The notes below the pieces were generated by a model. It saw only the letters and a list, made by a program, of their open reading frames with translations. It was not told where the DNA came from and ran no database searches. A program made the translations under genes and the position numbers. From Mediterranea sp. (in: CFB group bacteria) (lineage in GTDB: Bacteria; Bacteroidota; Bacteroidia; Bacteroidales; Bacteroidaceae), in assembly GCA_031287715.1 (NCBI GenBank), contig JAITSN010000068.1, forward strand, positions 1 through 37,386: a DNA stretch of 37,386 bases. The letters run 5' to 3'. Of this stretch, positions 12,628-37,386 are shown one piece after another. Numbering within the stretch: position 1 is the first letter of the stretch; every line of letters begins with the position of its first letter.

Positions 12628-12715
12628 CGGAGAAAGCGGGATTCGAACCCGCGATACGCTTTAGGCGTATACACGCTTTCCAGGCGTGCCTCTTCAACCA
12701 CTCGAGCATCTCTCC
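12628..12715 (-). tRNA. tRNA-Ser (anticodon GGA)
   Basis: An 88-base class II tRNA. The acceptor arms GGAGAGA and TTTCTCC pair with one wobble, and the discriminator is G. The anticodon stem CACGC/GCGTG encloses the loop CTGGAAA with anticodon GGA (plus-strand 12679-12681). A long variable arm (TATACGCC...GCGTAT) and the T arm GCGGG-TTCGAAT-CCCGC complete the fold. CCA is not encoded. The remaining parts of 12541-12884 are A+T-rich with no visible gene. Confidence 0.96.
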
Positions 12716-18292: not shown

Positions 18293-19543
18293 CTACGGAG
18301 TATATTGGAAAGTAGCATCAGCAGCTGCTTGTCCCTTATCGTCTCCGTATGCAACAGCAACGATGGTATAGCTTCCTGCGGCTGGCGCTGCGGTGAACGG
18401 AACAAGTACGGTTCCTGTTTTTGCCGGAGCTTCCACAGAATCGATATTGCCGCTCTTTATCTCTTCAATGGTTGCTTCCACATCGGTTCCTGCAACGACT
18501 GCAAGGCGAATGGTTTCTACATCTCCGCCTACCGCTGAGATTTGTACCAAAACGCCCGCTACTTCATTATTCGTATTCATATATGTGCCTGCGTAAGCAA
18601 TAGCAATGGAGTAGTCTGCCAAAACCACGCCCGGCATAACGATCTTGAATGCGCCGTTTGTATTGGCGGTATACAGACTGCCGCTATTATACTCTGCCAT
18701 GGCAATAAGCATGGTTCCCAAAGGGAAGGTGATCACTCCGTTTTCATAAGTTCCGGTATATCCGGATGCTTTTACTTCCTCCAGCGTTTGGCCTCCTGCC
18801 ATAAAATTCCCTGCCTTGCTGCCTACGGAGAACATTCCATTGGTCCATATCATACCGGTTTCCTGCACGTTGATGTAAACGGCCGTTGGATCTTCGGCGT
18901 GCACTTCAAGGTACCAGTCTCTTGAAGCATCCCAATCGCCCGGGTCGTTATAAGGATATGCTTCTCCAAACGGGTTAACCAGCCTGAAAAGCCCCGGTTG
19001 CAACTGGTTTTCCTGTATTTCTACCATATAAGGATCATTACCGGTCCCATAGAATGTCGTCAGGAAGTCTTCAGTAAAAGTACAATCGCCCAAAGACATC
19101 CATGGAGCAGGAATACCTACCGTGAAAACATATTCCGGAAAACCGTAACCGGTGGTGTATGAATCACCGCCAATACTCAGTTTCAGTTCGGTGAAATTGT
19201 CGAAGCCTACGGCATCCGGATCGTACGTTATAGTAATAACGGCTGTCGACGCGCCTTGTGCAAAGGCAACGGATGCAGGAACATTGTAAAGCCCGTTCGC
19301 GCCGGTTACTGTTAGCGGCACAGTCGTTGCCGCATCGGTTTTAATCCTGGCGATAGAGACCTCGAATGAGTTTTCCCGACTCGACAGAACAATGGATGCG
19401 CTGTTGGAGGAGGGGAAGTATACCTGTTCGGTATCGAGCTTGCCGGCCGGCGTGTATTCCGGTTCATCCTCTCTACATGAGTAGAAGGTTGTCATAGCAG
19501 CCAACGCCAATATAATAGCTGATATGTTCTTTATTGTCTTCAT
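18293..19543 (-). CDS. SusCD-associated surface lipoprotein
   Basis: A 416-residue lipoprotein, third gene of the SusCD-1 locus. The signal peptide ends in the lipobox FYSC, followed by REDEPEYTPAG, acidic residues compatible with surface export in Bacteroidetes. The rest is rich in short beta strands with Gly turns (ANGLYNVPASVAFAQGAS, VITITYDPDAVGFDNF), like a Calx-beta or Ig-like fold. The C-terminal part contains another Ig-like block ending ATFQYTP. The position after susD matches SusE/SusF-type accessory proteins, which bind the ligand at the surface, but the sequence does not tell the ligand. It starts 21 bases after the susD stop. Confidence 0.8.
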   Translation of the reverse strand: MKTIKNISAIILALAAMTTFYSCREDEPEYTPAGKLDTEQVYFPSSNSASIVLSSRENSFEVSIARIKTDAATTVPLTVTGANGLYNVPASVAFAQGASTAVITITYDPDAVGFDNFTELKLSIGGDSYTTGYGFPEYVFTVGIPAPWMSLGDCTFTEDFLTTFYGTGNDPYMVEIQENQLQPGLFRLVNPFGEAYPYNDPGDWDASRDWYLEVHAEDPTAVYINVQETGMIWTNGMFSVGSKAGNFMAGGQTLEEVKASGYTGTYENGVITFPLGTMLIAMAEYNSGSLYTANTNGAFKIVMPGVVLADYSIAIAYAGTYMNTNNEVAGVLVQISAVGGDVETIRLAVVAGTDVEATIEEIKSGNIDSVEAPAKTGTVLVPFTAAPAAGSYTIVAVAYGDDKGQAAADATFQYTP

Positions 19544-19564: not shown

Positions 19565-21196
19565 TTACTTAGGTTTTGCATATTCGCCTATGGGGGTCGG
19601 TCCTGTAACCGTAGCCGTCGGATCGGGGTTATTAAGTCCTTTCAAGGCGGCATTTGCTTGTACCTCGTCAATAGGAATAACTAAGTTCCAGATAGGTTTG
19701 ATCCCTTCGCAATTGATCTTGAAAATGTCTGCCGGAGCATTGGTGTCTTGGTAGTTCTGTACCACGCCCGGCTTCAATCGTTTTGCCGTAGGGAATGCGT
19801 TGCCTTCGCCCCAGAATTCAATGCGCATTTGGGTAAGTACTTCCAATTGGAATTGATACAGATCGGTAAGGGTGCAATTGTAATCGGACTGGCGGTAAGT
19901 CTGCATGAAAGCGTTCAGTTTGGCAACGCCGGCAGCTACTCCCTGTGATGCGGCGACGGCTTCGGCTTCGATGAGATACATCTCTTCGATCCGCATGACC
20001 GGCACGTCAACCGCTCCTCCGACGCTGTACGTCTCCCAATCGCCATTCAGGCAGCGGAACTTGAGGGCAAGATATGCGGGTGCATCTTCGATCCATGCGG
20101 CATCACGCGACGTTTGATAATTATAGTAATCAAACTTCTGAGGGTCGAGGAACGAATATTTACGGAAATCCGTATCGGCGATCTTGTCATACAACGAACG
20201 GTCAATGCTCAGACACGCCAATGAAGAGTATCCCCAATCGGCTTCACCGGACATCCAGCCGGTAAAGTTAGCCAGGTTAGACATGTTCTCTGCCGAATAA
20301 TGAATGTACCACATCCAGGCCTGGTTGGCTGTGTTGAATCCGGTGTTTACATCATTCCATTGTGCTCCGGTGACGGGAGATCCCCCCGAAGTATCGATAG
20401 CCTTGCGGGCGTAGGTTGCCGCATTGGCATAATCTTTATCCCACAGGTAGACCTTAGCCTTCAGGCCATACACAACCGACAGGTCAGGGAAGAGTTTCGA
20501 TTTGGGCGTGTAATCTTTCAGGCATTTCTCGGCTTTGTCCAAGTCCGAAAGGATAAAGGCGATCATCTCCTGGTGGGAAGCGCGCGGATTGTTTTTGGCC
20601 ATATCGGCAGTTGTTTCTTCGGTTACGAACGGAACAGTCAGCCCCAATACGTCGGAGCAGTCCGTGTAGATGTTTTCAACCGGCTCGAAAAGAACAGTGA
20701 GCAAATAGTAGTCAAAGGCACGGCAAGCGTATGCTATACCGGCGCTTCCTTTAATGGCTGGTGTCAGGCTTTCGTCTTCGATATCGACCGTTGCGATTAT
20801 GTCGTTTGTCGATTTAATGAACTTGTACAGTGTAAACCATGGCAAGTAAGAGAAATAGCTGTTTTCGCCTACGTTGCCGTTAAAGGTATTGTAATTTCTA
20901 AACCAGTCATAACCGCTGTTGTCTCCAAGCGGGTATATGTCACCCAGCATTTCCGTCTGTGCGATCATGAATTGAGGGTAAGCTAAGTCGGTTTCGTGGA
21001 CTTGTCTGTCATAAACAAGATAGCCCTTGGCCATTTGCGAAGGGATGCCGTTCAGGGAAGCCTCCAAAGCCTCTGCCGAAGCACCGATCTGTTCGGATGT
21101 AGCAGTAGCTCCTTCGGGGAAAGTTTCTTCAATACAGCTTGTTAAGGTTACTCCTAACATAAGCAATGCGAAGAATATTTTAGTTAGTTTTTTCAT
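19565..21196 (-). CDS. susD: SusD/RagB-family nutrient-binding lipoprotein 1
   Basis: A 543-residue SusD homologue. The signal peptide ends in a lipobox (GVTLTSCIEE), so it is a lipoprotein exposed on the outer membrane, forming the lid over its SusC partner. The tetratricopeptide-like helical region (for example LSVVYGLKAKVYLWDKDYAN) is seen in the middle. The C-terminal half contains the family's RIEEMYLIEAEAVA segment and the LTQMRIEFWGEGNAFPTAKR segment before the end. It lies between susC-1 and the third lipoprotein gene with gaps of about 21 bases, so it is transcribed with them, and probably only when susC-1 is joined to a promoter. Confidence 0.92.
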   Translation of the reverse strand: MKKLTKIFFALLMLGVTLTSCIEETFPEGATATSEQIGASAEALEASLNGIPSQMAKGYLVYDRQVHETDLAYPQFMIAQTEMLGDIYPLGDNSGYDWFRNYNTFNGNVGENSYFSYLPWFTLYKFIKSTNDIIATVDIEDESLTPAIKGSAGIAYACRAFDYYLLTVLFEPVENIYTDCSDVLGLTVPFVTEETTADMAKNNPRASHQEMIAFILSDLDKAEKCLKDYTPKSKLFPDLSVVYGLKAKVYLWDKDYANAATYARKAIDTSGGSPVTGAQWNDVNTGFNTANQAWMWYIHYSAENMSNLANFTGWMSGEADWGYSSLACLSIDRSLYDKIADTDFRKYSFLDPQKFDYYNYQTSRDAAWIEDAPAYLALKFRCLNGDWETYSVGGAVDVPVMRIEEMYLIEAEAVAASQGVAAGVAKLNAFMQTYRQSDYNCTLTDLYQFQLEVLTQMRIEFWGEGNAFPTAKRLKPGVVQNYQDTNAPADIFKINCEGIKPIWNLVIPIDEVQANAALKGLNNPDPTATVTGPTPIGEYAKPK

Positions 21197-21217: not shown

Positions 21218-24200
21218 TTAGAACTTTAGTGTAACACCACCCGAGATGGTCCTTATAGGAGAATAGTAAGTGGCATTGGTCCTATCCTTGTAGGATTGGC
21301 GCGGGTCAAAGCCTTTGCGCTTGGACCAGTAGAACACATTTTCGCAAGAGACATAGAGTCTTAACGAATTGACAAACGCTTTTTTAGTCCACTTGGACGG
21401 GAAGGTATAACCCAAGTTGATGTTCTCAATATTCAGGTAGCTGGCATTGGTCAGGAAGCGGGTAGAACTACCGGTGCTATACGTATCGGCAAACATAAAG
21501 CGCGGAATATCGCTGCTGCTGTTCTCCGGCGTCCACGACTTCAAGACATCTGCGTGGAAATTATAGCCCGTATTGGAAGCTGTAGGCGATGACATGAACT
21601 GTGCATACGTGCCGTCGTACTGCTTGCCGCCGATCTGATAAGAGAGGTTGATGCTGAAATCTACTCCATAGGCTTGTATGTTCGTGCCGAAGCCGCCATA
21701 GAAGTCGGGGATGGAAGATCCGTTGCTCACATAATAATCCGCATCGGCATATTGGGTGGTCGTCAGGCGTTCGCGCGTTTCTTTACCGCTTGCGTCTGTT
21801 GCTACTTTATCGTAGTACCACATGGATTGTCCGTCTTCCGATACGCCGGCATATTCTTTTAACCGCCAGGTGTACATGGACAGACCCTCTGCTATGAAGA
21901 AGTTTTCATTGACATAACCTTTATGCTCCTTGCCCTTGAGGTCGTATAAGGAAGAAGTCTTTTTGTCTTCATGCAGCATTGTGATGCGGTTCTTCAAGGT
22001 AGAGAAGTTGAGGTTGACATCCCATGAGAAATTCTTTTCCTTAAAGAGGTTTATCCCAAGCTCCAGCTCAAGACCGGTGTTGTACATATCGCCCACATTG
22101 TCGTAATAGCTCGGATAGCCTAATGAAGGTGCCACCGAGAATGAAAACAGCATGTCTGTCGTCTTCCGGTAGTAGTATTCCAAGCTGCCCGATATGCGTT
22201 TGAACAATTGGAATTCGGTACCGATGTTGAAGTTGGTATTGGTTTCCCAGGTAATGTCCCTTGTTCCTTTGGTCGTAAACGAAGTGCCGACGTTGCCCGC
22301 CGAGTTGGTGATATCGAACACATCGGTATAGCGGTAGTTGCCTATATTGTCATTTCCTTGTTCGCCGATGGACGCTTTCACTTTCAGCTCGTCCACCCAC
22401 GAAACATCGAACCATTTTTCTTTATTGATGAGCCATGCTCCACCCACCGACCAGAAAATACCCCAGCGGTAATCAGGATGGAAGCGTGAAGAAGCGTCAC
22501 GACGGATGGATGCGGAACCAAAGATGCGCTGGTCGTAGTTGTACTGTAAACGGGCGAAGTAGCCTTCATTGTTACGGCGGGTGTTGTATGAGTAGGCATT
22601 CTGACCGTCGATCACCGCACCGCCCAACTCCTTGTTATCCTGCGAGAACATCTTCGACTTAGAAGCAGACAGCAGATAGTATCTGTAGTCGTAGTATTCA
22701 TGCCCCAACAGAACATCAAGGTTGTTATAGGCTCCTATATGGGTAGAGTAATTTACAAGCTGTTGTATGTTATAGTCATATTCACGGCTATGCTCCTTGT
22801 AGACAGTACCCCCGGTGGTGTCAAACTGCCCGTAATACGGATTGTACACATTGGTAGTGCGTGTCTCGTCCAGGTTGTAGGTACCGTTCAAGGTGATGAC
22901 AAGACCCGGTATGAATGTAAGATTCATAAATCCGTTTCCGGTGGTTGCATTGCCTTCCGCATTGTCTGTATTCAGCTTGTTGTCCATGATCGGGTTAGCA
23001 TCCGAAATGAACGGGCGCGACATGCCTGCGTTGGTGCCGTTGCCATAGTCCATCATGCCAAAGCCATTGCCGTCAATCTTCACTTTGCCGTCGGCCGTAC
23101 GGATATAAGCGGGATAAATAGGGGCCATTTGCGAGGTAAACGCCCAAACGTTGCCGGTTGAAGTGCTTGTGCCATTGTTGCCGAGCGAGTTCTGTTCAAA
23201 TCTTGTATAAGAAAGGTTACCGCCCACTTTCATCCATTCTTTTGCCTGGTAGTCGGCCTTCAAGCGGGCGCTCAAGCGTTTTATGTCGGAAGATTCGGTG
23301 ATACCTTCATTGTCCAAGTAGCCCAAGGAAGCATAGAAAGAAGATCTGTCGCCGGCTCCGCTGATAGACAAGTTGTATTCCTTGCGGGCGCCTGTCCGTG
23401 TTCCTGCATCTTCCCAGTCGTCAGGCGTCAGCAGATATTCTTCCCCCTTGTAAGAAACGACACGGCCCAGCGTCGCATTCGGGTTTAGCTTGCCGTTTGT
23501 GCCGATCAGCACCTGTCCGTCGGGGATGGTATATACGTTGTAACCCAAACCACCGTTTCCCTGGTCGCCGAACAAATTACTGTTGGCCTTTTTCCAGGCC
23601 TCCGTACCGCTCATTTTTTGATTGACATAATAGCTTTGCAAAGCGCCATAATGCATTTCATAATATTGCGCGGGATGGGTGATGATGTTGTACTGCTTCA
23701 ATGCGCGTGTGTTGAAACCATATTTGGCGTCAAACGTAACCACAGCATCACCACCTGCCTGGCCGGCTTTCTTGGTCGTGATCATGATAACGCCGTTAGC
23801 GCCCCTGGCACCGTACAAAGCATTGGAAGCCGCATCCTTCAATACCGTCATGGATTCCACATCATTCGGATTGAGGTTACTCAAGTCACCGCCATAAGGG
23901 GCGCCATCTACAATGATCAACGGATCATTCTCGGCATTTAACGAGCTGAAGCCACGGATCTTTATAGAAGAAGTAGCGCCCGGAGCACCATCGTTAGAAG
24001 TCAGCTGCACGCCGGGAACCGCCCCTGCCAATGCGTTTGTAATGCTTGTTACCTGCGATTTTTCCAGCTGCTTGGTGTCGATCACCTTAGCCGAGCCGGT
24101 AAATGCCGACTTCTTTGCCGTACCGAAGGCGACCACGATCACCTCCTCCAGCAGTTCCGTATCGGCCTTCAGCACCACGCGGACGGTGGGCGCGACGCCC

Positions 24201-24307
24201 ACTTCCAGGGTTTGCATACCGACAAAGGAAACTTGCAAAGTCTTCGCGGAACTTGGTACGTTTTTAGGTGGACGAGCGTTTGGATAAACAAAAGCCGGAG
24301 CATCCAC
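21218..24307 (-). CDS. susC: SusC/RagA TonB-dependent receptor 1, 5'-truncated (silent cassette)
   Basis: A SusC-family outer-membrane transporter whose 5' end is missing. Homology to susC-2 begins at NVPSSAKTLQVSFVGMQ (24262). The 15 or so codons before it come from the sequence after a transcription terminator and begin with a GTG, so the predicted start is artificial. Missing are the signal peptide, the start of the carboxypeptidase-D-like domain and any promoter. The remainder is intact: TonB-box region EEVIVVAFGTAKK, plug domain (KIRGFSSLNAENDPLIIVDG, VLKDAASNALYGARGANGVI) and a beta barrel to a terminal Phe (GGVTLKF). The open frame, kept over 1000 codons, suggests a functional cassette waiting to be joined to an expressed 5' end and not an old pseudogene. 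It leads into susD-1. Confidence 0.9.
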   Translation of the reverse strand: MDAPAFVYPNARPPKNVPSSAKTLQVSFVGMQTLEVGVAPTVRVVLKADTELLEEVIVVAFGTAKKSAFTGSAKVIDTKQLEKSQVTSITNALAGAVPGVQLTSNDGAPGATSSIKIRGFSSLNAENDPLIIVDGAPYGGDLSNLNPNDVESMTVLKDAASNALYGARGANGVIMITTKKAGQAGGDAVVTFDAKYGFNTRALKQYNIITHPAQYYEMHYGALQSYYVNQKMSGTEAWKKANSNLFGDQGNGGLGYNVYTIPDGQVLIGTNGKLNPNATLGRVVSYKGEEYLLTPDDWEDAGTRTGARKEYNLSISGAGDRSSFYASLGYLDNEGITESSDIKRLSARLKADYQAKEWMKVGGNLSYTRFEQNSLGNNGTSTSTGNVWAFTSQMAPIYPAYIRTADGKVKIDGNGFGMMDYGNGTNAGMSRPFISDANPIMDNKLNTDNAEGNATTGNGFMNLTFIPGLVITLNGTYNLDETRTTNVYNPYYGQFDTTGGTVYKEHSREYDYNIQQLVNYSTHIGAYNNLDVLLGHEYYDYRYYLLSASKSKMFSQDNKELGGAVIDGQNAYSYNTRRNNEGYFARLQYNYDQRIFGSASIRRDASSRFHPDYRWGIFWSVGGAWLINKEKWFDVSWVDELKVKASIGEQGNDNIGNYRYTDVFDITNSAGNVGTSFTTKGTRDITWETNTNFNIGTEFQLFKRISGSLEYYYRKTTDMLFSFSVAPSLGYPSYYDNVGDMYNTGLELELGINLFKEKNFSWDVNLNFSTLKNRITMLHEDKKTSSLYDLKGKEHKGYVNENFFIAEGLSMYTWRLKEYAGVSEDGQSMWYYDKVATDASGKETRERLTTTQYADADYYVSNGSSIPDFYGGFGTNIQAYGVDFSINLSYQIGGKQYDGTYAQFMSSPTASNTGYNFHADVLKSWTPENSSSDIPRFMFADTYSTGSSTRFLTNASYLNIENINLGYTFPSKWTKKAFVNSLRLYVSCENVFYWSKRKGFDPRQSYKDRTNATYYSPIRTISGGVTLKF
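24140..24262 (-). repeat. 123-bp inverted repeat, copy in susC-1
   Basis: Read on the minus strand this copy matches 29996-30118 with a single mismatch (GGTATGC against GGCATGC), then the two genes diverge. It encodes NVPSSAKTLQVSFVGMQ through LLEEV and contains the palindrome GTGGGCG-TCG-CGCCCAC (24186-24202). Identity stops exactly where susC-1 loses its 5' end. Confidence 0.93.
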
Positions 24308-24327
24308 GTTTGTCGATGCTCCGGCTT
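24292..24327 (-). terminator. Terminator of the surface lipoprotein gene, insulating silent susC-1
   Basis: AAGCCGGAGCATC and its complement (24292-24304 / 24315-24327) form an 11-13 bp stem. On the minus strand it is followed by TTTTGTTT. It lies between the upstream lipoprotein gene and susC-1, so read-through transcription into the truncated receptor gene should be low. Confidence 0.85.
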
Positions 24328-24348
24328 GCCTTCTTTATTTGCCCGGAA

Positions 24349-27300
24349 TCAGTTCGTTACCGTTCCGTAGCCGGAAATGAGAGAGACCGTTCCGCCGATG
24401 CCGGCACTGTTCGTGCCACATTCTACCGTTCCGTTGTTCGTTATTGTCTTGCCGCTTAGCTTGAGCGTCCAGTCGGCGGGGATCGTGAGCACCGCTCCGC
24501 TCGGAACCGTCAGATCACCCGTCAGGGTGATCGTCTTGCCCGATATAGTGAAGGCGGTGATCCGGCTGGAAAAATCGCTGCCGCTCATGCCTCCAACCTT
24601 TTTGGCAAAGACCATGGCAGTATTGGCGAATTTTACGGTTGTTCCCATATTCACTTCATCCACCTTGCCGATGAATCCTCCTGCCGACACGACCGTTCCG
24701 CCGTTGACCGTTATGCTGCCTGACTCCGACCCGCCGGATCCCGCGCCGAAAGCCGGACGGGTGTCGTCGTTCACGTTCATGAAGACGAATCCTCCGGTGA
24801 CGGTCATGTATCTCTCAGTGCCGGTGGGGCCGCCGCCGATACATGCCCCATAACCGCTGTCGGCATCGCCGGGCGCAGCTTCCACATAGCCGCCGGAGAT
24901 ATTTACGGTGCATCCTGTACCCTTCTTTCCACCGCCGATACCTGCGCCGCCCTTACTACCCTTGGCATATACTTCTCCGCCGGAGATATTGATGGTTCCG
25001 CCACCAACAGTTCCCGTGCCTTCATACAGGCCGGTTCCGATGCCGGCGCCTTGTGTGGCATCGTAAATGCCGTTCGCCTTAACGATTCCGCCGGAGATGT
25101 TGATGGTTCCCGCGCCGCCGCTACCAAAACCGCCCATGGCGGCGCCCGTCCCATAGATGGTCGCTTCGACTTCTCCGCCGGAGATGGTGATGATTCCGTT
25201 CTGACCGCCTTTACCGGCACCGATGCCGCAACCTTCCCCGTTGCTGTTTCCTCTAACCTTACCGCCGGTGATGGTGATGGTTCCGCCGCCGCTACCGTTT
25301 GCGCCGCCGATGCCGGCACCCGCTCCATGGGTGTTTCCAAAAACCGTACCGCCGGTGATGAGGATCTCTCCCGCGCCGTCGGAGCCATAGCCGCCGATGC
25401 CGGCGCCGCCTTTCTGGCTACCCGTGCCAGATACGTCTCCGCCTTCAATGACCACCTTGCCGTTCTTACCGTTATACGCGCCGCCGATGCCGCAACTGGC
25501 GCCATTGCCTTGACTTGCGTAAACCGTGCCGCCCTTGATGATGACGGTTCCGCTGGTGCTGTTCTCGCCCACGCCGCCGATGCCGGCGCCTAAGTAACCC
25601 CGTGCGGATAGTATGCCGTCTGTTCCTGTTCCGTCGCCCGCGGCGCTCTCGATAACAAGCTCTGCCGTTTGGGGAACATGCACGCCGGCCAGCCCGGACG
25701 TGTTCGTTATAGACATCTCGAACTCATTCCATCCGGAGAGCTTCATTGTTACCTTTGCGCCGGCACCAAGGGAGAACGCACTGTAAGCGCCTCCCATCTC
25801 GATTTCGGCGTTACTCGGCGTTACTTCGCAGGTTACATTCGCGGCCACTTCTATGCGGTAGGCTGTCGTCTTGTTGATGACCTTGTACTTGCCGTCTTTG
25901 GTGATGGTAAACAGGTTGCTCGCAAACGTCACGCCTTCCGGAAGCAGCGTGGCATTGGCCAAGTTGATCACCTTCATCCATTTGGCGTACAGGGTGATGT
26001 CTGCCGTATAGTCCGTCCCGCCCAGCTCCGTCACCGGTGTTCCGGTCGCATCGGAGGTGGCATACCATCCGCCAAACTCGGCATACTCCGTCGGCGTGGC
26101 CCAGGTGGCCGTCTTGAGCGTTGTTTCCACGCCGTAGGTGTGCACCGTGGGGTAGCCGGCTTCGTGCACGCCACCAAAGCCGCCTCCGGTTCCCATATCC
26201 TTATATATGATGTGGTATTGGGGTATCCATTGGGCATACAGATCGACGTTCCCCGTCCAGGCCGGGTAGTGGTCGCCGGCGTTGTAAACGGTTCCGCGGG
26301 CGTCTGCCTTCGTGTTCCATTCCTTGAAGATGTGCATCGGCCAGTTGAAAGTGCTGGGCAGTATGGGGCAGGACATGTTGGTCACCCACTGCTGCACCAT
26401 GGGTTCTATCGTTCCGTCGTCGTTGGGGCGATAGGTCATCGTACATGGATTGAACTTGGCGTCGTCGTCCCAAGGGTCTATCACTACGGGGTCGAGTGTT
26501 ATTTTCGTGAGCGACAGTTCCAGGTTGTATTCATAGTGTTTTCCTGCCAGCCAGTTTTGCGCGGGCAGACTGATCGTTTTCTTTTGCGAGACGGCGTCTA
26601 CCATCCAGGTCACTTCCATGCTGACGGCATCTGCTGCGATGGTTTGCGGCAGGAGCATCAGGTATCCGGCGTTGTTCACGGCTGCGGCTGTCGTGCCCAG
26701 TGTAACGGCTGTGGCCACCATTTCGTCTCCTGCGTTGGTCATGTATGTTTTTCCGCTTGCCGGGAATGTCCAGGCTCCCGCCGCATGGTCGCTTCCTCCA
26801 AAGGTGTAGGTGGCTTTGCTTTCCACGGCGTTGGCGGCGTAGATGACTTTCAGTGAGGTTACTTTTACGGTCGCGGCGTATGCTTCTTTCAGCCGTGCGG
26901 AGAATCCGATGCGCGACAGCTCGTGGCGCATACGGAACTTGACGTTTCCGCCGGCGACGGTCTCGTCTGTCACCACGTCCGCCACGAAATCTTTCTGGTT
27001 GGCCTGACTGTCGGCAATGGTGCAGGTCAGCGTGGGCGTTCCGGCCGTTGTGCTTGCGGCGGCGGTCGCTCCCGTCCCTTCGTTCCATGCGAAGAAAGAG
27101 ATCTTGCCGTAGTTGGTTCCGTCTACCATTCCGGGCCAGTATTTGATGGGGGAATAGGTCCATGCCGTTGCTGTTCCGTCCCACGTCACAAGCTGATTGT
27201 ACATAAATTCGGGTTTGGCAGTGGCTGCTGCGGCGCTCCAGTCTGTCGTTTCGGTGTAGTATGCGCTGACGCGGAAGCCCGAGGTCTTCAAGGCGTCGAT

Positions 27301-27483
27301 TTTCACTTCCGCTGCGCGGGTTGAGTCACTTCTCGAGAGCAGCGGGGTCACGTCCATTGCGTTGAACCCTATCGCACCGGCTGTTGCTCTTGTTTCTGCC
27401 GCCTCCCGATCATCCGTACAGGACGATAGTACAAACAGCGTGCAAAGCATAAGCCCAATTTTTTTATTCAAGGTATTTATCAT
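24349..27483 (-). CDS. Large surface lipoprotein: fimbrillin-like N-domain, InlB B-repeats, Gly-rich beta-helix
   Basis: A 1044-residue predicted surface lipoprotein. From the Met at 27483 the signal peptide ends in a lipobox (FVLSSCTDDREA). Residues of about 30-330 resemble the fimbrillin (Mfa-like) fold (VRHELSRIGFSARLK-like block: FRMRHELSRIGFSARLK). About 350-510 hold two InlB B-type repeats (NADLYAQW-like endings: GNVDLYAQW, ADITLYAKW). From about 590 to 960 come some ten repeats of roughly 30-40 residues built on GAGIGG-x(n)-G-x-I-x-ITGG-x-V-x-A, a right-handed beta-helix as in Cthe_2159-type carbohydrate-binding proteins. An adhesin or ligand-binding role is inferred. An invertible promoter lies upstream, currently pointing into the gene. 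The frame extends to 27543, but that part precedes the signal peptide. Confidence 0.85.
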   Translation of the reverse strand: MINTLNKKIGLMLCTLFVLSSCTDDREAAETRATAGAIGFNAMDVTPLLSRSDSTRAAEVKIDALKTSGFRVSAYYTETTDWSAAAATAKPEFMYNQLVTWDGTATAWTYSPIKYWPGMVDGTNYGKISFFAWNEGTGATAAASTTAGTPTLTCTIADSQANQKDFVADVVTDETVAGGNVKFRMRHELSRIGFSARLKEAYAATVKVTSLKVIYAANAVESKATYTFGGSDHAAGAWTFPASGKTYMTNAGDEMVATAVTLGTTAAAVNNAGYLMLLPQTIAADAVSMEVTWMVDAVSQKKTISLPAQNWLAGKHYEYNLELSLTKITLDPVVIDPWDDDAKFNPCTMTYRPNDDGTIEPMVQQWVTNMSCPILPSTFNWPMHIFKEWNTKADARGTVYNAGDHYPAWTGNVDLYAQWIPQYHIIYKDMGTGGGFGGVHEAGYPTVHTYGVETTLKTATWATPTEYAEFGGWYATSDATGTPVTELGGTDYTADITLYAKWMKVINLANATLLPEGVTFASNLFTITKDGKYKVINKTTAYRIEVAANVTCEVTPSNAEIEMGGAYSAFSLGAGAKVTMKLSGWNEFEMSITNTSGLAGVHVPQTAELVIESAAGDGTGTDGILSARGYLGAGIGGVGENSTSGTVIIKGGTVYASQGNGASCGIGGAYNGKNGKVVIEGGDVSGTGSQKGGAGIGGYGSDGAGEILITGGTVFGNTHGAGAGIGGANGSGGGTITITGGKVRGNSNGEGCGIGAGKGGQNGIITISGGEVEATIYGTGAAMGGFGSGGAGTINISGGIVKANGIYDATQGAGIGTGLYEGTGTVGGGTINISGGEVYAKGSKGGAGIGGGKKGTGCTVNISGGYVEAAPGDADSGYGACIGGGPTGTERYMTVTGGFVFMNVNDDTRPAFGAGSGGSESGSITVNGGTVVSAGGFIGKVDEVNMGTTVKFANTAMVFAKKVGGMSGSDFSSRITAFTISGKTITLTGDLTVPSGAVLTIPADWTLKLSGKTITNNGTVECGTNSAGIGGTVSLISGYGTVTN

Positions 27484-27551
27484 CTGATCCACTATATAAA
27501 ATCTATAATATATGTATAAAAGACAAGCCGTGTTGTTCATCAATTGTTTTG

Positions 27552-27766
27552 TCCCAAAAAACGTTGGTTTAATGACACAAAGCTATTCTTTTTGTTTAAA
27601 CAACGCAAGTTTCACAACAATTTTTTTTCAAAAACGTTTGTAGAGCCTATCAAGTCGGCGTTTACGATTTATTACTTAGTATTTTAAGTAACATTTTGGA
27701 GATGCGGCGCAGAGACATCATCGCCCCTGCACCTCCCGCTCATTAAACCAACGTTTAATGAGCCAC
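27552..27766. promoter_or_regulatory. Invertible promoter cassette 2 (phase switch for the surface lipoprotein)
   Basis: Two inverted copies of the same site family as cassette 1 bound this segment. The left copy (27552-27577, centre TT at 27564-27565) is more diverged. The right copy (27738-27763, centre AA at 27750-27751) has only one mismatched pair. The copies share 17 identical bases in inverted orientation (core AAACGTTGGTTT). The centres are 186 bp apart, against 189 in cassette 1. The flank inside the right copy (GCGGGAGGTGCA read leftward) is identical to the flank inside the left copy of cassette 1, so the two cassettes are homologous but in opposite orientation. The promoter sits at the left end and points left, into the lipoprotein gene. 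Confidence 0.8.
27578..27609 (-). promoter_or_regulatory. Promoter inside cassette 2, pointing into the lipoprotein gene (ON)
   Basis: On the minus strand: CTTG (27609-27606), 20 bases, TAGCTTTG (27585-27578). The -7 box matches TAnnTTTG and the -33 box is one base off TTTG. As in cassette 1, the -7 box is followed at once by TG and the inversion site. The predicted leader is about 85 bases to the start at 27483. Confidence 0.7.
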
Positions 27767-27891
27767 TTTACACAACACGACCCAACTGTCTTACAGATCT
27801 ATTCTACAAGCCTGCAAACTCATCCTGCAAGCCTCATCTTTATTATATAATGGATTGATTTCTTTAGGGAGCCTCTATGGGATCTTTTCAT

Positions 27892-28121
27892 AGCGCCCTC
27901 CGCAGCGGGGAGAGCGCAAAGTTTTTGTCGAAAGCAGTTTCCGCAGCGGGGAGAGCGCAAAGTTTTTGTCGAAAGCAGTTTCCGCAGCGGGGAGATCGCA
28001 AAGTTTTCGTCGAAAGCAGTTTCCGCAGCGGGGAGATCGCAAAGTTTTCGTCGAAAGCAGTCTCCGCAGCGGGGAGATCGCAAAGTTTTCGTCGAAAGCA
28101 GTTTCCGCAGCGCGGAGGATG
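27892..28121. repeat. Tandem array, 41-bp units (array 2)
   Basis: Five near-identical 41-bp units start at 27901, 27942, 27983, 28024 and 28065, with partial units at both ends. A unit begins CGCAGCGGGGAGATCGCAAA and ends GTCGAAAGCAGTTTC. Variants are confined to AGAGCG/AGATCG, GTTTTTG/GTTTTCG and one GTTTC/GTCTC. It contains the palindromes CCGCAGCGG and GAAA-GCAG-TTTC. Because 41 is not a multiple of three, frames through it shift at every unit, so it is not coding. It lies just after the recombinase gene and next to promoter cassette 2. Confidence 0.95.
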
Positions 28122-28243
28122 CTCTTCTTGTCTGTCCTTGAACTCTTCGCTTGCAATTTCTATTGTTGCCATAATGCTACTCTTTTAATGGGTTATAAAT
28201 GGATAATGGACCATTAATTCCACCGCAGAATAATTGTCCATTG

Positions 28244-29404
28244 TCAATTATTACTGTTTTCCAGGTCGCGTATGATGGTGATGTCCATGACGTTGGTGTA
28301 GACCTGGGTTGTCTTTATGCTTTTGTGTCCCAGCAGTTTTTGGACGGTGGTGATGTTTACACCTTTATATATAAGAAGTGTTGCGTTGGTGTGGCGGGCG
28401 ACATGGAATGATACGCGTTTGTCGATGCCTGCCAGGCGGGTGATCCGGACGAGTTCCTTATTGACGTTGGAGTTGTCCCTTATCTTGAAGAAAGCGGCGA
28501 GGTGTTTTTCATACCGGTGCAGTATGCTCAGCGCTTTTCCTTCAAAAAGGAGGTAGAGAGGCAGCCGCACTTCTATTTTTGTTTTGATGGATTTGTAGAC
28601 CAACCAGATTTCGTTATTCAGTTGTACGATGTTGGAAGGGTTGAGGCTGACAAAATCCGAGTAGCGCAGTCCTGCATAGCAACAGAACAGGAAGGCGTCC
28701 AGCGTCAGCCGCAGCTTCTGGTTGCGCCCTTTCAGTTCCAGGTTTTCGAGCAACGCGAGTTCTTCGGGCGACAGATGGATGTGTTTGTTGTCTATGGTTT
28801 TGATGCGGTACTTTCGGAAGGGGTATTGGTGAAGGCTCATATAGTCCATGTTGATAGCGATGTTGATGTAGCGTTTGAGGTGTTTCATGTGTTTGGCGAT
28901 GGTATTGACGTGATACCCTTCCATCCGCAGGAAATGGTCGAAGGAAGTGACGAACTCAAAGGTAAGGTCGGTGAAGGCGATGTTTCGCTTGAACCGGTTG
29001 AGTGTTTTCCAGGTAGACAGGTGGTTTTTCTTCGTGCTTCCCCTGAGGGATGCGTTTCCGATCTCGCGTTTGAGGAAAACGAGGAACGACGCGTTGTCTG
29101 TCGGCGAGTGAAGGGATTCTTTCAGGGCTTCCAAGCTAATGTTCCGGCCTTGTTGCCAGAGGCTCAGTTCTTTTTTTTCAATGGCGGAGATGTACTCGTA
29201 CAGCCTTCTGTTGAGCGCTTCGCTGTTGGGGTGGTTTTTGACAAGCTGCCTTTTCCCGTCCCATTGGTCGGGCAACAGATATATTTTGGTGGAGAAATAT
29301 TTCCTTTTTTTGTTCAGATATGCTTCTACTTGTACCAAGGCGGCTCCACGCTTGTTGAGTGTCCCTCTTCTGTTGAAAACCAGATTGTATGTGATTTTAT
29401 CCAT
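28244..29404 (-). CDS. Tyrosine site-specific recombinase
   Basis: A 386-residue tyrosine recombinase of the Bacteroidetes type, with an arm-binding domain (about 1-90), a SAM-like core-binding domain (about 105-200) and a catalytic domain. The active-site residues are visible: Arg247 in CCYAGLRYSD, a Lys in the VYKSIKTK hairpin, His334 and Arg337 in SFHVARHT, His360 in LLGHKS and nucleophile Tyr369 in TTQVYTNV. It breaks and rejoins DNA through a 3'-phosphotyrosine. Family members adjoining surface-protein loci of Bacteroides flip promoter or gene segments. Here it lies wholly inside the 5.7 kb bounded by the 123-bp susC inverted repeats, between the two receptor loci, so it is the natural candidate for that inversion. 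No phage or integrative-element genes are seen next to it. Confidence 0.93.
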   Translation of the reverse strand: MDKITYNLVFNRRGTLNKRGAALVQVEAYLNKKRKYFSTKIYLLPDQWDGKRQLVKNHPNSEALNRRLYEYISAIEKKELSLWQQGRNISLEALKESLHSPTDNASFLVFLKREIGNASLRGSTKKNHLSTWKTLNRFKRNIAFTDLTFEFVTSFDHFLRMEGYHVNTIAKHMKHLKRYINIAINMDYMSLHQYPFRKYRIKTIDNKHIHLSPEELALLENLELKGRNQKLRLTLDAFLFCCYAGLRYSDFVSLNPSNIVQLNNEIWLVYKSIKTKIEVRLPLYLLFEGKALSILHRYEKHLAAFFKIRDNSNVNKELVRITRLAGIDKRVSFHVARHTNATLLIYKGVNITTVQKLLGHKSIKTTQVYTNVMDITIIRDLENSNN

Positions 29405-29803
29405 GCTGTTTTAATTAAAAGTTAAAGCACAAATATGGAATAGAAAAGGATTGAAGCGCGGTTATTTTAGACTCGTTTAGAAAAATAAGATAAAATTGGC
29501 GGCAAAAACGAGACAAAAAAGCAAAAGGAACCTTTTTTTATTCTGTTTTTCTCCTCAAGCAAACGAAAAGAAGAAAAGAATAGCTTTTTGTTTTAGCGGA
29601 CAGCACTGTATAACCGTTTATCCTATCGGAATTTATGACTGATTGCGCGCCGAATAACAGAGCAAAGGGCTTCTTGATAACAAATCGTAACCGTTGCAAG
29701 GTTTTTTTTGGTAAACGCTTGTTTCTTTCAGCTTAATTGATATATTTGCAAAGTGTTAAAGTGAAGAAGAAACGATTTAATGTAAAGTTAAACTTTAAGA
29801 TTT
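29405..29803. other. Intergenic region between recombinase and susC-2
   Basis: A 399-bp A+T-rich stretch. It holds the susC-2 promoter (29718-29748) near its right end. I see no RNA gene, repeat or convincing promoter for the recombinase in the rest. Confidence 0.6.
29718..29748 (+). promoter_or_regulatory. Promoter of susC-2 (expression site of the receptor switch)
   Basis: CTTG (29718-29721), 19 bases, TATATTTG (29741-29748): the -7 box matches perfectly and the -33 box is one base off the Bacteroidetes consensus. The leader is about 50 bases to the ATG at 29804. It lies inside the putative 5.7 kb invertible segment, so it would move with that segment. Confidence 0.75.
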
Positions 29804-32800
29804 ATGAAGAGAAAATTTATGTTGTTTTTAGCCTGCCTGTTTATCGGTGCAGGTTTAGTAACCGCTCAGACTCAGACTGTAACAGGGATTGTTCTTTCTG
29901 AAGACGACGGCCAACCGGTTGTGGGAGCTTCCGTGTTGGTGAAAGGTACTACGGTAGGTACGATTACCGACATAGACGGTAAGTTTACGTTGTCTAACGT
30001 ACCAAGTTCCGCGAAGACTTTGCAAGTTTCCTTTGTCGGCATGCAAACCCTGGAAGTGGGCGTCGCGCCCACCGTCCGCGTGGTGCTGAAGGCCGATACG
30101 GAACTGCTGGAGGAGGTGGTGGTTGTAGCTTACGGCACGGCGAAGAAAGAATCCCTGACGGGTTCCGTGTCGATAGTAGATTCCAAGAAGATAGAGCAGC
30201 GCATCGGCAGCAGCGTAACCGGTGCCCTGGAGGGGTCGTCTCCGGGCATTCAGGTAAACAACTCGTATGGCGAGCCGGGGTCAAGCCCGTCCATTCGCAT
30301 TCGCGGTTTTGGTACGATGAGCACGACTGCCGGCGCAGCCGATCCTCTGTATGTTGTCGATGGTGTTCCCTACGACGGGAATATTTCCGGCTTGAATCCC
30401 GCCGATATTGAATCGATCTCGGTGTTGAAGGACGCCGCTTCTTCCGCCCTTTACGGCAACAGGGCGGCGAACGGGGTTATCCTGATCACAACCAAAAAAG
30501 GCAAGGAGTTTGGCAAAACAACGATTTCGTTGGCTATAAACCAGGGCATTTATAGCCGCGGCCTCGAAGAATACGAACGCTTGGATGCAGACCCCTGGAT
30601 GGAGGCCCAATGGATTTCCACAAAGAACTATGCAAAATCCCTTTCCGGCATAGGCAATGACGAAGCCAAAGCAGCGGCTTATGCAACGCAAAACCTTATT
30701 GCCGAGAGCGTAAAAAGAAACATTTACGATAAAGCAGACAATGCCCTTTTTGATGCAAACGGAAAGCTGGTTGCAAACAGATTGCCGGGCTATGACGACC
30801 TCGACTGGTTCAAGGCTTTAGAGAGAAGCGGCCATCGCCAGGAATATACGTTGTCTGCCACAACGGCCGGGGATAAATATAATGTGTATTCTTCGATCGG
30901 CTACCTGAAAGAAAACGGTTATATCATCAACACCATGTTCGAGCGTTTTTCGGCCCGCGTAAACAGTACGTTTAACCCGACGAAATGGCTGAAAGCGGGC
31001 ATTAACGTATCGGCTACCACCCAAACGCAGAACTATAATTCGACCGCATACAGTTCTTATTATGCCAACCCGTTCTATACGGCCCGTAATATGGCGCCTG
31101 TGTATCCTATTTATCTGCACAATGCCGACGGATCTTACGCCTTGGATAAAAGCGGCGGCAAGCAATATGACCTGAAATCGGATTACCTGAGCAACCGCCA
31201 TACTATTTACGAGCGCTACGCAGATAAAGAAGAAGGAAGGCGCAACACGTTGGGCGGCCAGGCCTATGCAACAGTGAATTTACCCTACAACATCGACCTG
31301 ACGGTTAAGGGCGACCTGAATCAGAGAACACGTAATATTAGCGATTATAATAATCCTAATATTGGCGACGGCGCAACGAACAACGGACGCCTGACCAATT
31401 ACGCCTATCAATATCAGACGGCCAACGTCCAGGAATTGATCAACTGGAATTATGATTCAGGGGCGCACCATGTTGATGTCATGGCAGGACACGAGAATTA
31501 TTCTTATGGCATGAAAGTCAACTATGGCATGAACACCAATATGATCGTTGAAGGCAGCTTTACGATGGGCAACTTTACGACCAATTCATACTATACAGGA
31601 TACGACCAGGATTATAAAACGGAGTCCTACCTGTCGCGCGCACGCTACAACTATGATGAGAAATACTATGTGGAAGCATCTTTCCGCCGCGACGGCTCTT
31701 CCAGGTTCCATCCGGACCATCGCTGGGGCAACTTCTATTCATTGGGTGCAAGCTGGAACATCAAGAAGGAAGCGTTCATGGACGCAACCGAATGGGTAAA
31801 CAGTTTGAAGCTAAGGGCTTCCTATGGTGAAGTGGGCAATGATGCTCCGGTTAATTTCTACGGTTATATGGCTCTTTATAACGTGGATAAAAACGGTGGA
31901 AACAGCGCGCTAACCAAAAAGTCGCTCAATGCGGACGATATTAAATGGGAAACGACCCAAACAATGGACTTTGCCGTAGAAGGGCGCTTGTTTGACCGCC
32001 TTAACTTTTCTGTCGGTTACTTCGATAGACGATCCAAGGATTTGCTGTTTGAAGTGAAATTGCCGCTGTCGGCGGGTTCGTATCCTTACAATTCCGACAA
32101 TACAAATATGACGCAATACAAAAACATCGGCACGGTTTCCAACCGCGGCATTGAATTGTCTTTGGATGCGGATGTTTTCAAAACAAAAGATTGGACTTGG
32201 AATTTAGGGGCGGATGCCACACTCCTCAAAAACAAGATCGTTAAATTGCCTGACGGGAACGACATTTTGAAGGGCTTGCAGAAATACTCCGAAGGTCATT
32301 CCATGTATGAATTCTGGCTTTACCATTTTGAAGGCGTAGACCAAATGACGGGTAATTCTTTGTATACACTCGACCCTGAGTTGAAGGACACGGCTGTGAC
32401 AAACGGCAAACTTGTTACGATCAACGGCACCGATTATACGATCGATACCACTTACGGCGCGAAACAGTGGGCCGGCTCCGGTATTTCCGACATCTATGGT
32501 TCGTTCCGTTCTTCATTAAGCTGGAAAGACATCACTTTCAATGCCCTGTTTACCTATCAGCTTGGCGGGAAACTCTATGATTCGAGCTACAGGAACTTGA
32601 TGCAGACTTCCGCCATCAATGCCGATGCGCTGCATAAGGATATGCAAAGATCATGGTCGGGCATACCGGAAGGCATGACCGACAATTCCCCGAACCGCAT
32701 TGACAAAGGGGGTATTCCGGTAAACAACAGCAAGCTCAGCGAGTTTACCAACGCCGGAACTTGCGACCGCTGGCTGACAAGCGCTTCTTATCTGATATTG

Positions 32801-33022
32801 AAGAATATTAATCTTTCATACCGTCTTCCGAAAAAACACCTGAATACCTTGGGGATTGAAGGGCTGACGATAACCGCCGGCATTGAAAATCTTTTCACCG
32901 CCACCTCGCGCAAGGGTGTGAATCCCCAAGCCACATTCAGAGGGTTCTCGGAATCGGGAGAAGAAGATGATACTTATGTGACACCGCGCATTTACAACAT
33001 CGGGCTGACACTTAAATTCTAA
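29804..33022 (+). CDS. susC: SusC/RagA TonB-dependent receptor 2 (complete)
   Basis: A 1072-residue outer-membrane transporter. The signal peptide (MKRKFMLFLACLFIGAGLVT, cleaved after AQ) is followed by a carboxypeptidase-D-like domain (about 25-100, TGIVLSEDDGQPVVGASVLV). The TonB box EEVVVVAYGTAKK lies near residue 105, then a plug domain (SIRIRGFGTMS, DPLYVVDGVPYDG, VLKDAASSALYGNRAANGVI) and a beta barrel ending NIGLTLKF. It imports a ligand bound by SusD-2 using TonB energy; the ligand, probably a glycan or peptide, cannot be read from the sequence. Codons 65-105 (29996-30118) are nearly identical in DNA to susC-1, whereas the plug and barrel differ. It has its own promoter, so it is the expressed copy in this assembly. 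Confidence 0.95.
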   Translation: MKRKFMLFLACLFIGAGLVTAQTQTVTGIVLSEDDGQPVVGASVLVKGTTVGTITDIDGKFTLSNVPSSAKTLQVSFVGMQTLEVGVAPTVRVVLKADTELLEEVVVVAYGTAKKESLTGSVSIVDSKKIEQRIGSSVTGALEGSSPGIQVNNSYGEPGSSPSIRIRGFGTMSTTAGAADPLYVVDGVPYDGNISGLNPADIESISVLKDAASSALYGNRAANGVILITTKKGKEFGKTTISLAINQGIYSRGLEEYERLDADPWMEAQWISTKNYAKSLSGIGNDEAKAAAYATQNLIAESVKRNIYDKADNALFDANGKLVANRLPGYDDLDWFKALERSGHRQEYTLSATTAGDKYNVYSSIGYLKENGYIINTMFERFSARVNSTFNPTKWLKAGINVSATTQTQNYNSTAYSSYYANPFYTARNMAPVYPIYLHNADGSYALDKSGGKQYDLKSDYLSNRHTIYERYADKEEGRRNTLGGQAYATVNLPYNIDLTVKGDLNQRTRNISDYNNPNIGDGATNNGRLTNYAYQYQTANVQELINWNYDSGAHHVDVMAGHENYSYGMKVNYGMNTNMIVEGSFTMGNFTTNSYYTGYDQDYKTESYLSRARYNYDEKYYVEASFRRDGSSRFHPDHRWGNFYSLGASWNIKKEAFMDATEWVNSLKLRASYGEVGNDAPVNFYGYMALYNVDKNGGNSALTKKSLNADDIKWETTQTMDFAVEGRLFDRLNFSVGYFDRRSKDLLFEVKLPLSAGSYPYNSDNTNMTQYKNIGTVSNRGIELSLDADVFKTKDWTWNLGADATLLKNKIVKLPDGNDILKGLQKYSEGHSMYEFWLYHFEGVDQMTGNSLYTLDPELKDTAVTNGKLVTINGTDYTIDTTYGAKQWAGSGISDIYGSFRSSLSWKDITFNALFTYQLGGKLYDSSYRNLMQTSAINADALHKDMQRSWSGIPEGMTDNSPNRIDKGGIPVNNSKLSEFTNAGTCDRWLTSASYLILKNINLSYRLPKKHLNTLGIEGLTITAGIENLFTATSRKGVNPQATFRGFSESGEEDDTYVTPRIYNIGLTLKF
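29996..30118 (+). repeat. 123-bp inverted repeat, copy in susC-2
   Basis: Partner of 24140-24262 with one mismatch in 123 bases, in opposite orientation, 5733 bp away. The palindrome GTGGGCG-TCG-CGCCCAC lies at 30056-30072 and is a candidate core for strand exchange. Confidence 0.93.
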
Positions 33023-33055: not shown

Positions 33056-34675
33056 ATGAAAAAATATATGAATAAATTATTCATGGGAAGCCTTGCCGGG
33101 GTAACGCTTTTGGTTGCTTCCTGTGCCGATGATTACCTGAATACGAAGCCAACAGATTCGGTGGGCGCATCTTCCACATTTGAAACGACCACGAATGCGG
33201 CAATGGTTATCAACGGTATTGCACAGATCATGACCACCCAACAGTATAGTTTCTCGCAAGGGTATTGCGGTGAGAACCGTATCAAAAGCATCTACGGGGA
33301 ATATATGGGGAAAGATTTCGTGTATAACCAGATGGCGCCGGGCTGGGCTGTTATCATGAACGGCGATTATTTCACAAGAAAAGCAACGGTGTACAGCGCT
33401 TATCCCTGGTATTACTATTATACAATTATCGGAAATGCAAATGCGGTAATTGTTAATATCGACGGAGCCGAAGGCACCGAAGAAGAACGGGCGTTTATCA
33501 AAGCCCAGGCGCTGACCTTCCGCGCTTATGCCTACCATATGCTGATGCAACTCTATACTTACCGCTGGCAAGACACCAACGGCGGAACAACGAACGGTGT
33601 TGTTTTGCGCTTGGACGAAACGACCGGCGATATGCCCCTGTCGCCGGTGAAAGACTGCTATGACCAAATTTATACAGACTGCAAGGATGCGATCGCATTG
33701 TACAAATCGTCGGGCCTGAACCGTAACGCATCCCATGTCTGGCTGCCGGATCTTTCTATGGCTTACGCCGTATATGCCCGTGCCGCCTTGACCCGCCAGG
33801 ATTACCAAGCGGCTTTGGACAATGCAAAACTTGCCCGCGCAAACCACCCGCTGATGACAAACGACGAGTATGCCGCCGGTTTCTGCAAGCCTAACAGGGA
33901 GTGGATATTGGGTAGCTACGGCGACCCTACCGAAAACCAATGGTATTGGACCTTCGGTACGCAGTTTGCCTGCAACGGCTATTACGCCGGCAATACACAG
34001 TATGGGGCAGGCGCCATTGACAAAGAATTAACGGACAAGATCCCCGATAACGACACCCGCAAAGCCCTGTTCTTAACGGTCGATAAGGTGGCGGGCTTTG
34101 ACCTGACAGACCCCGGGGTGATGAGCCAAACCCAAGCCTATTTCGTTGGTGATGATATTTGGGACAAGGCATCCGAATATATTCTTTCCAAGACCCCTTC
34201 GGGACTTGACGACGCATACCAGGCGGGCTATTTCTACTTGGGCGCCCAATTGAAATTCTGGGTATTCGACACTCCGGGCATTTCATACCTCTGCCACATC
34301 CGTTCTTCGGAAATGGTGCTGATTGAAGCGGAAGCCAACTATTTCCTGCAAGATCCTGCCAAGGCGCAAGCTGCATTGGAAGAGCTGAACGCAGGGTCGG
34401 GACGTAATCCGGCTTACACCTGTACAAAAACAGGCGACGGTTTATTGCAGGAGATCATCGACTACCGTGGCCTTGAGCTTTGGGGTGAAGGCTTCAGCTG
34501 GTTCGACTACAAGCGCTGGAACAGGGATATTACCCGTAAGAGTATCGCCGATGGCGGCAATGTTCACGTTGCCACAGCCGTTACCATTAAAGCGAACGAG
34601 AAAAACCGCTGGACTTGGGATATACCGGAAGCGGAAACGAACTATAACGGCGGCATTGACATTGCCGCAAACTAA
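33056..34675 (+). CDS. susD: SusD/RagB-family nutrient-binding lipoprotein 2
   Basis: A 539-residue SusD homologue. Its signal peptide ends in the lipobox LLVASCADDYLNTKPTDSV, where the N-terminal DYLNTKPTD is typical of the family. The helical tetratricopeptide-like part contains YAVYARAALTRQDYQAALDN. The C-terminal half has RSSEMVLIEAEANYFLQDPA and the classical closing segment IIDYRGLELWGEGFSWFDYK before RWNRD. It starts 33 bases after susC-2 and is co-transcribed with it. Unlike the SusCD-1 locus, no third lipoprotein gene follows; a terminator comes at once. Confidence 0.95.
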   Translation: MKKYMNKLFMGSLAGVTLLVASCADDYLNTKPTDSVGASSTFETTTNAAMVINGIAQIMTTQQYSFSQGYCGENRIKSIYGEYMGKDFVYNQMAPGWAVIMNGDYFTRKATVYSAYPWYYYYTIIGNANAVIVNIDGAEGTEEERAFIKAQALTFRAYAYHMLMQLYTYRWQDTNGGTTNGVVLRLDETTGDMPLSPVKDCYDQIYTDCKDAIALYKSSGLNRNASHVWLPDLSMAYAVYARAALTRQDYQAALDNAKLARANHPLMTNDEYAAGFCKPNREWILGSYGDPTENQWYWTFGTQFACNGYYAGNTQYGAGAIDKELTDKIPDNDTRKALFLTVDKVAGFDLTDPGVMSQTQAYFVGDDIWDKASEYILSKTPSGLDDAYQAGYFYLGAQLKFWVFDTPGISYLCHIRSSEMVLIEAEANYFLQDPAKAQAALEELNAGSGRNPAYTCTKTGDGLLQEIIDYRGLELWGEGFSWFDYKRWNRDITRKSIADGGNVHVATAVTIKANEKNRWTWDIPEAETNYNGGIDIAAN

Positions 34676-37158: not shown

Positions 37159-37386
37159 CTGCGCCGGCGCAGCGGATTCAAAAAAGAAATTTAGAGCTTC
37201 TGCGCCGGCGCAGCGGATTCAAAAAAGAAATTTAGAGCTTCTGCGCCGGCGCAGTGGATTCAAAAAAGAAATTTAGAGCTTCTGCGCCGGCGCAGTGGAT
37301 TCAAAAAATAAATTTAGGGCTTATGCGCCGGCGCAGGGGATTCAAAAAATAAATTTATGGCGTCTGCGACGGCGCAGGGGGTGAAA
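37159..37386. repeat. Tandem array, 41-bp units (array 3, cut by window edge)
   Basis: Six 41-bp units start at 37159, 37200, 37241, 37282, 37323 and 37364, and the window ends inside the sixth. Each unit begins with the 14-base palindrome CTGCGCCGGCGCAG, followed by (C/T/G)GGATTC, a run of A, then AAATTTA and a short tail (GAGCTT). Units drift steadily from left to right: AGCGG to AGTGG to AGGGG, AAAAAAG to AAAAAAT, and the last palindrome is broken (TGCGACGGCGCA). No frame spans it. It lies upstream of aroA. Confidence 0.95.

Follow-up and report, generated by a model that had tools for sequence, protein, structure and literature searches.

The Tsr0667-driven SusC/SusD shufflons of Bacteroides fragilis were reportedly described by Nakayama-Imaohji in 2009, and nutrient-receptor shufflons of Bacteroides thetaiotaomicron are said to have been described by Porter in 2020. 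Passages of PMC4747536 and PMC11852207 present Tsr0667 of B. fragilis as a master invertase that inverts alternative SusC/SusD receptors and serves three SusC/D clusters together with nine other regions. Region EE of B. fragilis is an intergenic shufflon that extends over the start of ragA/susC genes (PMC5729914). The 5′ end of susC there bears inverted repeats, which put alternative receptors behind one promoter; the repeats overlap the start codon, downstream of an invertible promoter, and three gene pairs or six genes are involved, depending on the strain (PMC5729914). The B. thetaiotaomicron shufflons are mentioned in a passage of PMC12548429. We analysed a 37,386-nt stretch of DNA from Mediterranea sp. 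(assembly GCA_031287715.1, contig JAITSN010000068.1, forward strand), referred to below in its whole length as the window, in which two facing SusC genes, susC-1 and susC-2, border a 5.7-kb segment that encodes a tyrosine recombinase. From its sequence we consider it highly probable that this locus is a two-state receptor switch, in which the recombinase would invert the segment so that either susC-2 or susC-1 is made; flipping is predicted.

The window locus resembles the Tsr0667 systems in DNA inversion, which is predicted here, in its alternative SusC/SusD receptors and in its tyrosine site-specific recombinase. Inversion sites at the 5′ ends of susC, with susD next to them, are also shared, in the window by anatomy only. 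It differs from those systems in having two bodies only and in carrying both the recombinase and a fimbrillin-like gene inside the segment. Unlike in region EE, the exchange point lies 67 codons into the gene and the promoter-like site lies within the flipped segment. What the locus would share with the B. thetaiotaomicron shufflons is a phase-variable choice between nutrient receptors. Strictly, a shufflon has at least three inversion sites; the window, with two cores, is therefore not one, while several relatives have three. An earlier note on this DNA had suggested that the arrangement may be undescribed. Because recombinase-driven SusC/SusD inversion is already known in B. fragilis (Tsr0667, region EE) and the module occurs in many sister species, that suggestion can hold for details only: the in-segment recombinase with its portable head, the fimbrillin-like cargo with a promoter element of its own, and the solo heads described below may be new. 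A literature search, in which the key 2009, 2020 and 2024 papers were not covered, recognised no paper on this module with fimbrillin-like cargo or solo heads, and we do not claim absence from print. Passages of PMC10939037 (Carasso 2024) report that invertible regions in or near susC/susD, together with upxY genes, differ most between inflammatory bowel disease and controls, so orientation-aware reading of such loci would be useful.

The two receptor genes are joined by an inverted repeat. In a search against the organism's own genome the 123-bp arms were 99% identical, with one mismatch (E 7e-58), and including a weaker tail the repeat extends to 152 bp at 94%; 5733 bp lie between the arms (Table 1). 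Counted outward from the core in 20-bp steps, ungapped DNA identity is 19-20/20 in the first five steps, then 17 and 15, and within the bodies falls to 2-12. Toward the inside, the step with the arm's last 9 bp has 11/20 and those beyond it 1-7/20. A chance origin of the repeat is excluded. At the protein level the alignment of susC-1 and susC-2 begins at NVPSSAKTL, with 35% identity overall. Both proteins exceed the cut-off of TIGR04056 (SusC/RagA TonB-linked outer membrane proteins), with 693 and 753 bits versus 368. The Pfam domains Plug and beta-barrel are present in susC-1, and the CarbopepD_reg_2 head, which susC-2 has, is absent; the missing part amounts to 67 codons ahead of the core. 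susC-1 nevertheless retains 1029 open codons, and the frames of susD-1 and lip1 are open too. The earlier note had described precisely this: a repeat with both arms in these places, an abrupt start of homology at it, and a 5′-truncated susC-1 that keeps more than 1000 open codons and its partners.

Receptor homology starts at one 15-bp site, AGTTCYGCRAARACT, and both ends of the segment carry the identical core in the same reading frame. As the earlier note had proposed, an inversion would by the sequence join one head in frame to two bodies. In the proposed mechanism the recombinase, encoded between the two receptor genes, would cut at the core AGTTCYGCRAARACT and invert the segment in which it is encoded. 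The segment would take with it a promoter-like site and the N-terminal head common to both receptors, in frame onto either receptor body, and only the headed receptor would be expressed. The signal-peptide-like start MKRKFMLFLACLFIGAGLVTAQ of susC-2, read from the sequence, lies inside the segment, as does a Bacteroides-type −7 box TATATTTG in the 399-bp divergent intergenic region between the recombinase and susC-2. A hairpin inside the segment would keep the headless gene silent. On the minus strand just upstream of susC-1 there is a strong hairpin followed by T's (−32.3 kcal/mol, z −5.7), and no TAnnTTTG box was found in the 38 bp between it and the core. Against a terminator at this place, a simple consensus terminator scan did not list the hairpin, and its 7 terminator-like sites are no excess over the 8.5 in shuffles. 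Lying within the segment, behind the fimbrillin-like gene, the hairpin would be carried along by a flip and would then face susC-2.

The recombinase, named as the agent here and absent from the earlier note, has an intact frame and reads away from susC-2. R247, K274, H334, R337, H338, H360 and Y369, the set known to be catalytic in the tyrosine recombinase family, are invariant in all 26 aligned recombinases; this alignment includes both B. salyersiae copies and leaves out the broken frames L045 and L065. In a sample of 60 Bacteroides genomes, own included, orthologues were found in 36, the others being 56-69% identical to that of the window, and the next matches reached at most 141 bits. Pfam and NCBIfam yielded general names only. 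Among solved structures the matches were distant members of the tyrosine recombinases, such as XerA, IntI4 and XerD, and covered mostly the C-terminal part. A B. fragilis integrase is among the matches, at 60% identity to the recombinase. On B. salyersiae contig NZ_KB905466.1 (L043/L044), two inverted recombinase genes with identical proteins surround one headless SusC, with an 890-bp inverted repeat.

We compared 26 relative loci, 20 unnamed and 6 named, with the two B. salyersiae views counted once; all the named ones are from Bacteroides, the genus with which the window's genome groups. A head lies 442-713 bp from the recombinase start in 23 of the 26 (442-454 bp in 22 of these), and the heads in those 23 loci are 69-86% identical to that of the window. 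The three loci without a listed head are a short B. salyersiae record, L058 (contig end) and L056 (no SusC found). Across the recombinase there is a headless SusC in 25/26. It could be argued that an integrase of a mobile element is present by chance and that the SusC similarity is ordinary paralogy: the scores of the recombinase to XerD-type and integrase models are far below the cut-offs, as in many mobile-element integrases, and paralogues of about 30% identity are abundant in the genus. The near-constant spacing of recombinase and head in 22/26 loci and the same headless partner in 25/26 make this explanation extremely improbable. Recombinase and headless SusC are 33-1728 bp apart in the relatives and 3994 bp apart in the window. 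Other cargo in this interval is a choloylglycine-hydrolase-family protein in L060 (G007) and a protein with weak ATPase-domain matches in L064 (G033).

Heads and bodies have different histories. Of 28 oriented loci, 19 entered the comparison of distances; loci were dropped if their headed SusC was incomplete or their recombinase frame was <300 aa. Mean identity over these 19 loci, own included, is 83% for heads, 30% for bodies and 66% for recombinases. Distances between heads correlate with those between recombinases (Mantel r 0.67, p 0.0005), and distances between bodies do not (r −0.08, p 0.72), which suggests that head, promoter region and recombinase act as one unit. We infer that receptor bodies come and go behind this unit. 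The head/body split suggests that receptor bodies are swappable, or replaceable between species, behind a resident head.

The core was compared at 21 loci, leaving out L043, which is a second view of L044, and loci without one of the two states. Because copies were chosen by protein pattern and required to start with AGTTC or GGTTC, this choice itself partly sets the first positions of the core. Headless copies that bear the core start at AGTTC and the DNA ahead of the core is unrelated, except that in the window, L058, L063 and L064 the two copies still share a few bases there; the L048 copy is preceded by masked bases. Headed and headless cores are identical in 16/21 loci (own included), versus 3.7 expected when headed copies are shuffled among loci (p 1e-4). 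In the other five the cores differ at position 1, 12 or 15 only, so that positions 2-11 are always matched. Strand exchange by tyrosine recombinases needs a matched site centre.

The inversion could also be real and proceed by general homologous recombination between the 123-bp repeats, with the recombinase a bystander. A near identity of 123 bp can support RecA-type exchange, and inverted repeats between headed and headless copies measure 35-173 bp where listed. However, L045, L049 and L057 contain both states with no inverted repeat of at least 30 bp listed, homology in the relatives begins at the same 15-bp core with its centre always matched, and the recombinase, which lies beside the head in 23/26 loci, co-evolves with it. 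We regard this alternative as quite unlikely.

Both orientations were seen among relatives only. On a single contig of genome G032 (C29), the orthologues of susC-1 (80%), susD-1 (83%) and lip1 (58%) are on the headed side and those of susC-2 (74%) and susD-2 (74%) on the headless side, the opposite of the window. The earlier note had named sister genomes with a complete susC-1 elsewhere, or a susC-1 decayed by frameshifts, as evidence against a switch. In G032 susC-1 is complete, but with a recombinase-linked head at the same kind of locus, which is what a flip would produce, and susC-2 is headless; in the window both receptors keep open frames. Protein-collection relatives were taken from the best 120 of 7995 matches for susC-1 and the best 120 of 7979 for susC-2. 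Among 119 listed susC-1 relatives 32 are headless; for 18 of these there is a headed partner whose body is at least 99.5% identical (100% for 10). For susC-2, 69 of the best 120 listed are headless and 45 of these have such a partner at the same threshold (8 at 100%). Entries P0340 and P0341, since both have a head, were reassigned by hand to the headed group. The headless susC-2 relative P0307 (B. cellulosilyticus) is found on 293 contigs, the longest of 605 kb, and agrees with a headed entry over 957/957 residues.

Several observations weigh against a working switch. In G032 there are two stops in the recombinase and two mismatches in the core of the headless susC-2 orthologue, which is separated from the recombinase by other genes, among them a third headless SusC; the opposite state there may therefore be old and frozen. 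Altogether 4 of the 36 recombinase orthologues (G032, G063, G079 and G083) carry stops or are in pieces, and these switches may be frozen. There is no orthologue in 24 of the 60 genomes, one of these having a fragment. The headed/headless database pairs are relatives with 60-89% identity to the query, are not independent and come from among the best matches listed; gene calling or contig ends may account for some of the headless entries. The unlike cores of five loci count here as well. L056 (G030:C1:1156207-1157364) is a full-length orthologue, 65% identical, with no SusC within about 9 kb. Finally, no flipped junction from the organism itself was among the listed matches, in which the best susC-1 relative after its own entry is 80% identical, and the source assembly is a draft metagenome genome of 121 contigs, 84% complete.

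Two further alternatives draw on these points. A frozen relic, in which susC-1 is the dead remnant of a past flip and the repeat a leftover, would fit the lack of a flipped copy of the same species among the listed matches and the broken recombinases of the four relatives. We judge it unlikely because the receptor, susD-1 and lip1 frames are open, the recombinase frame is intact, and the repeat DNA is 99% identical versus 35% for the proteins. The draft state of the assembly and the difficulty of inverted repeats for assemblers could point to an artefact, in which two strains were joined or a repeat was miscollapsed. This is very improbable, since a headless SusC lies across the recombinase in nearly all the relatives, including the single-contig genome G021, and a mis-join at the repeat would merely swap the two predicted states. 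Taking all of this together, we hold the switch to be very likely real, as judged from sequence comparison.

The same enzyme may serve a second, recombinase-free head on another contig. The pattern AGTTCYGCRARRACT has four perfect matches in the assembly, namely the two in the window and an inverted pair on contig C71 (67728-67742 and 68058-68072). When up to one mismatch is allowed, 13 matches are obtained, versus 4 for the reversed pattern. The head on C71 has a TATCTTTG box and comes to a dead end past the core, back to back with a headless SusC of 1040 codons, and a search of this contig for a recombinase relative found none. We infer that the window's recombinase serves the C71 head in trans. 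The Tsr0667 site consensus, reportedly AGTYYYN4GDACT, a string not found in the literature searched, fits the core of the C71 solo head at 15/15 positions and that of the window at 14/15.

Solo heads were examined at 14 places, 13 hand-picked from the listed matches as heads with a short open frame, and our own. At 11 of them a solo head is next to a headless SusC of opposite orientation, and the stretch of DNA examined there contains no match to the recombinase; of the remaining three, two are recombinase-linked and one is a tandem head. The 11 solo heads have the same core at both ends in five cases and a one-base difference in two, and the pattern missed one or both ends in four. All seven genomes with these heads, among the matches listed, have a recombinase orthologue (broken in G032), numbers too small for a test. 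The L056 enzyme is perhaps purely trans-acting. In its genome, G030, the strict 17-bp core has no match and the 15-bp core no perfect one; at up to one mismatch there are 13, versus 6 for the backward pattern.

The unusual part of the segment is the fimbrillin-like gene with an invertible-promoter-like element of its own. This gene likely starts at ATG 27483, ahead of a lipobox-like LSSC, as read from the sequence, and no match to it was listed in the other 27 locus records. Palindromic elements with two arms 178-190 bp apart and a TAnnTTTG box just inside one arm are present at 15 of 18 loci examined (two in the window). The gene-side arm of the fimbrillin-like element is weaker, at 20/26, yet this variant recurs in L070 and L081, so the promoter may or may not be locked on. 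Another such element, at 2700-2920 of the window, has palindromic arms GCTCATTAAACGTTCGTTTAATGAGC 189 bp apart and a box TATATTTG. It lies upstream of a polysaccharide-export gene (SLBB/Poly_export, 259-2739), and its box points away, which corresponds to OFF. Its arm contains GTTCGTTTAA, a repeat that a passage of PMC12118408 reports for invertible capsule promoters of B. intestinalis.

If the switch is real, a cell would commit heritably to one of two nutrient uptake systems through one promoter and one protein head. The 15-bp core and the head would then reveal, for any genome or metagenome, the on or off state of each receptor, making receptor choice in Bacteroides readable from sequence, and a defined site and enzyme would be available for testing. 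The switch would also account for many database SusC genes that look 5′-truncated yet intact. As a tentative extension, one recombinase family across Bacteroides may own a portable head, made up of promoter, signal peptide and N-terminal domain, for interchangeable SusC bodies, between which it would choose at its home locus. Elsewhere, solo heads flipped in trans would turn single receptors on, and the head segment of the window would have taken in a fimbrillin-like gene with an invertible promoter, forming a nested switch that ties adhesion to nutrient choice.

Table 1. Features of the predicted receptor switch and its surroundings in the window
Feature	Position	Strand	Basis
lip1, putative partner protein of system 1	18293..19543	-	ORF (open reading frame), no Pfam or NCBIfam family matched; 58% orthologue beside susC-1/susD-1 orthologues in G032
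susD-1	19565..21196	-	SusD-like_3, SusD_RagB
susC-1, headless (plug and barrel, no head); predicted silent in present orientation	21218..24307	-	ORF, Pfam/NCBIfam
Left arm of 123-bp inverted repeat	24140..24262	.	Repeat search, comparison with own genome
Predicted recombination core AGTTCCGCGAAGACT, encodes SSAKT	24239..24253	-	
Terminator-like hairpin in segment, upstream of headless susC-1	24293..24330	-	Fold
Cargo: fimbrillin-like (Mfa_like_1), Flg_new and glycine-rich repeats	24349..27543	-	
Gene-side arm of invertible-promoter-like element, 20/26 to consensus	27552..27577	.	
-7-type box TAGCTTTG, directed at fimbrillin-like gene	27578..27585	-	
Far arm of same invertible-promoter-like element, 26/26	27738..27763	.	
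Tyrosine recombinase (Tsr here)	28244..29404	-	Arm-DNA-bind_5, Phage_int_SAM_5, Phage_integrase
-7-type box TATATTTG, putative susC-2 promoter, inside segment	29741..29748	+	
Portable head: start, signal-peptide-like stretch, first 67 codons	29804..30004	+	
susC-2, complete	29804..33022	+	ORF, Pfam/NCBIfam
Right arm of 123-bp inverted repeat	29996..30118	.	Repeat search, comparison with own genome
Predicted recombination core AGTTCCGCGAAGACT	30005..30019	+	
susD-2	33056..34675	+	SusD-like_3, SusD_RagB

Other features of the window were also recorded. Two tandem arrays, each made of 5.3 copies of a 41-bp unit that differs between them, are located at 27899-28117, inside the invertible segment, and at 37159-37377. 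A tRNA-Ser (GGA) gene is present on the minus strand at 12626-12715.

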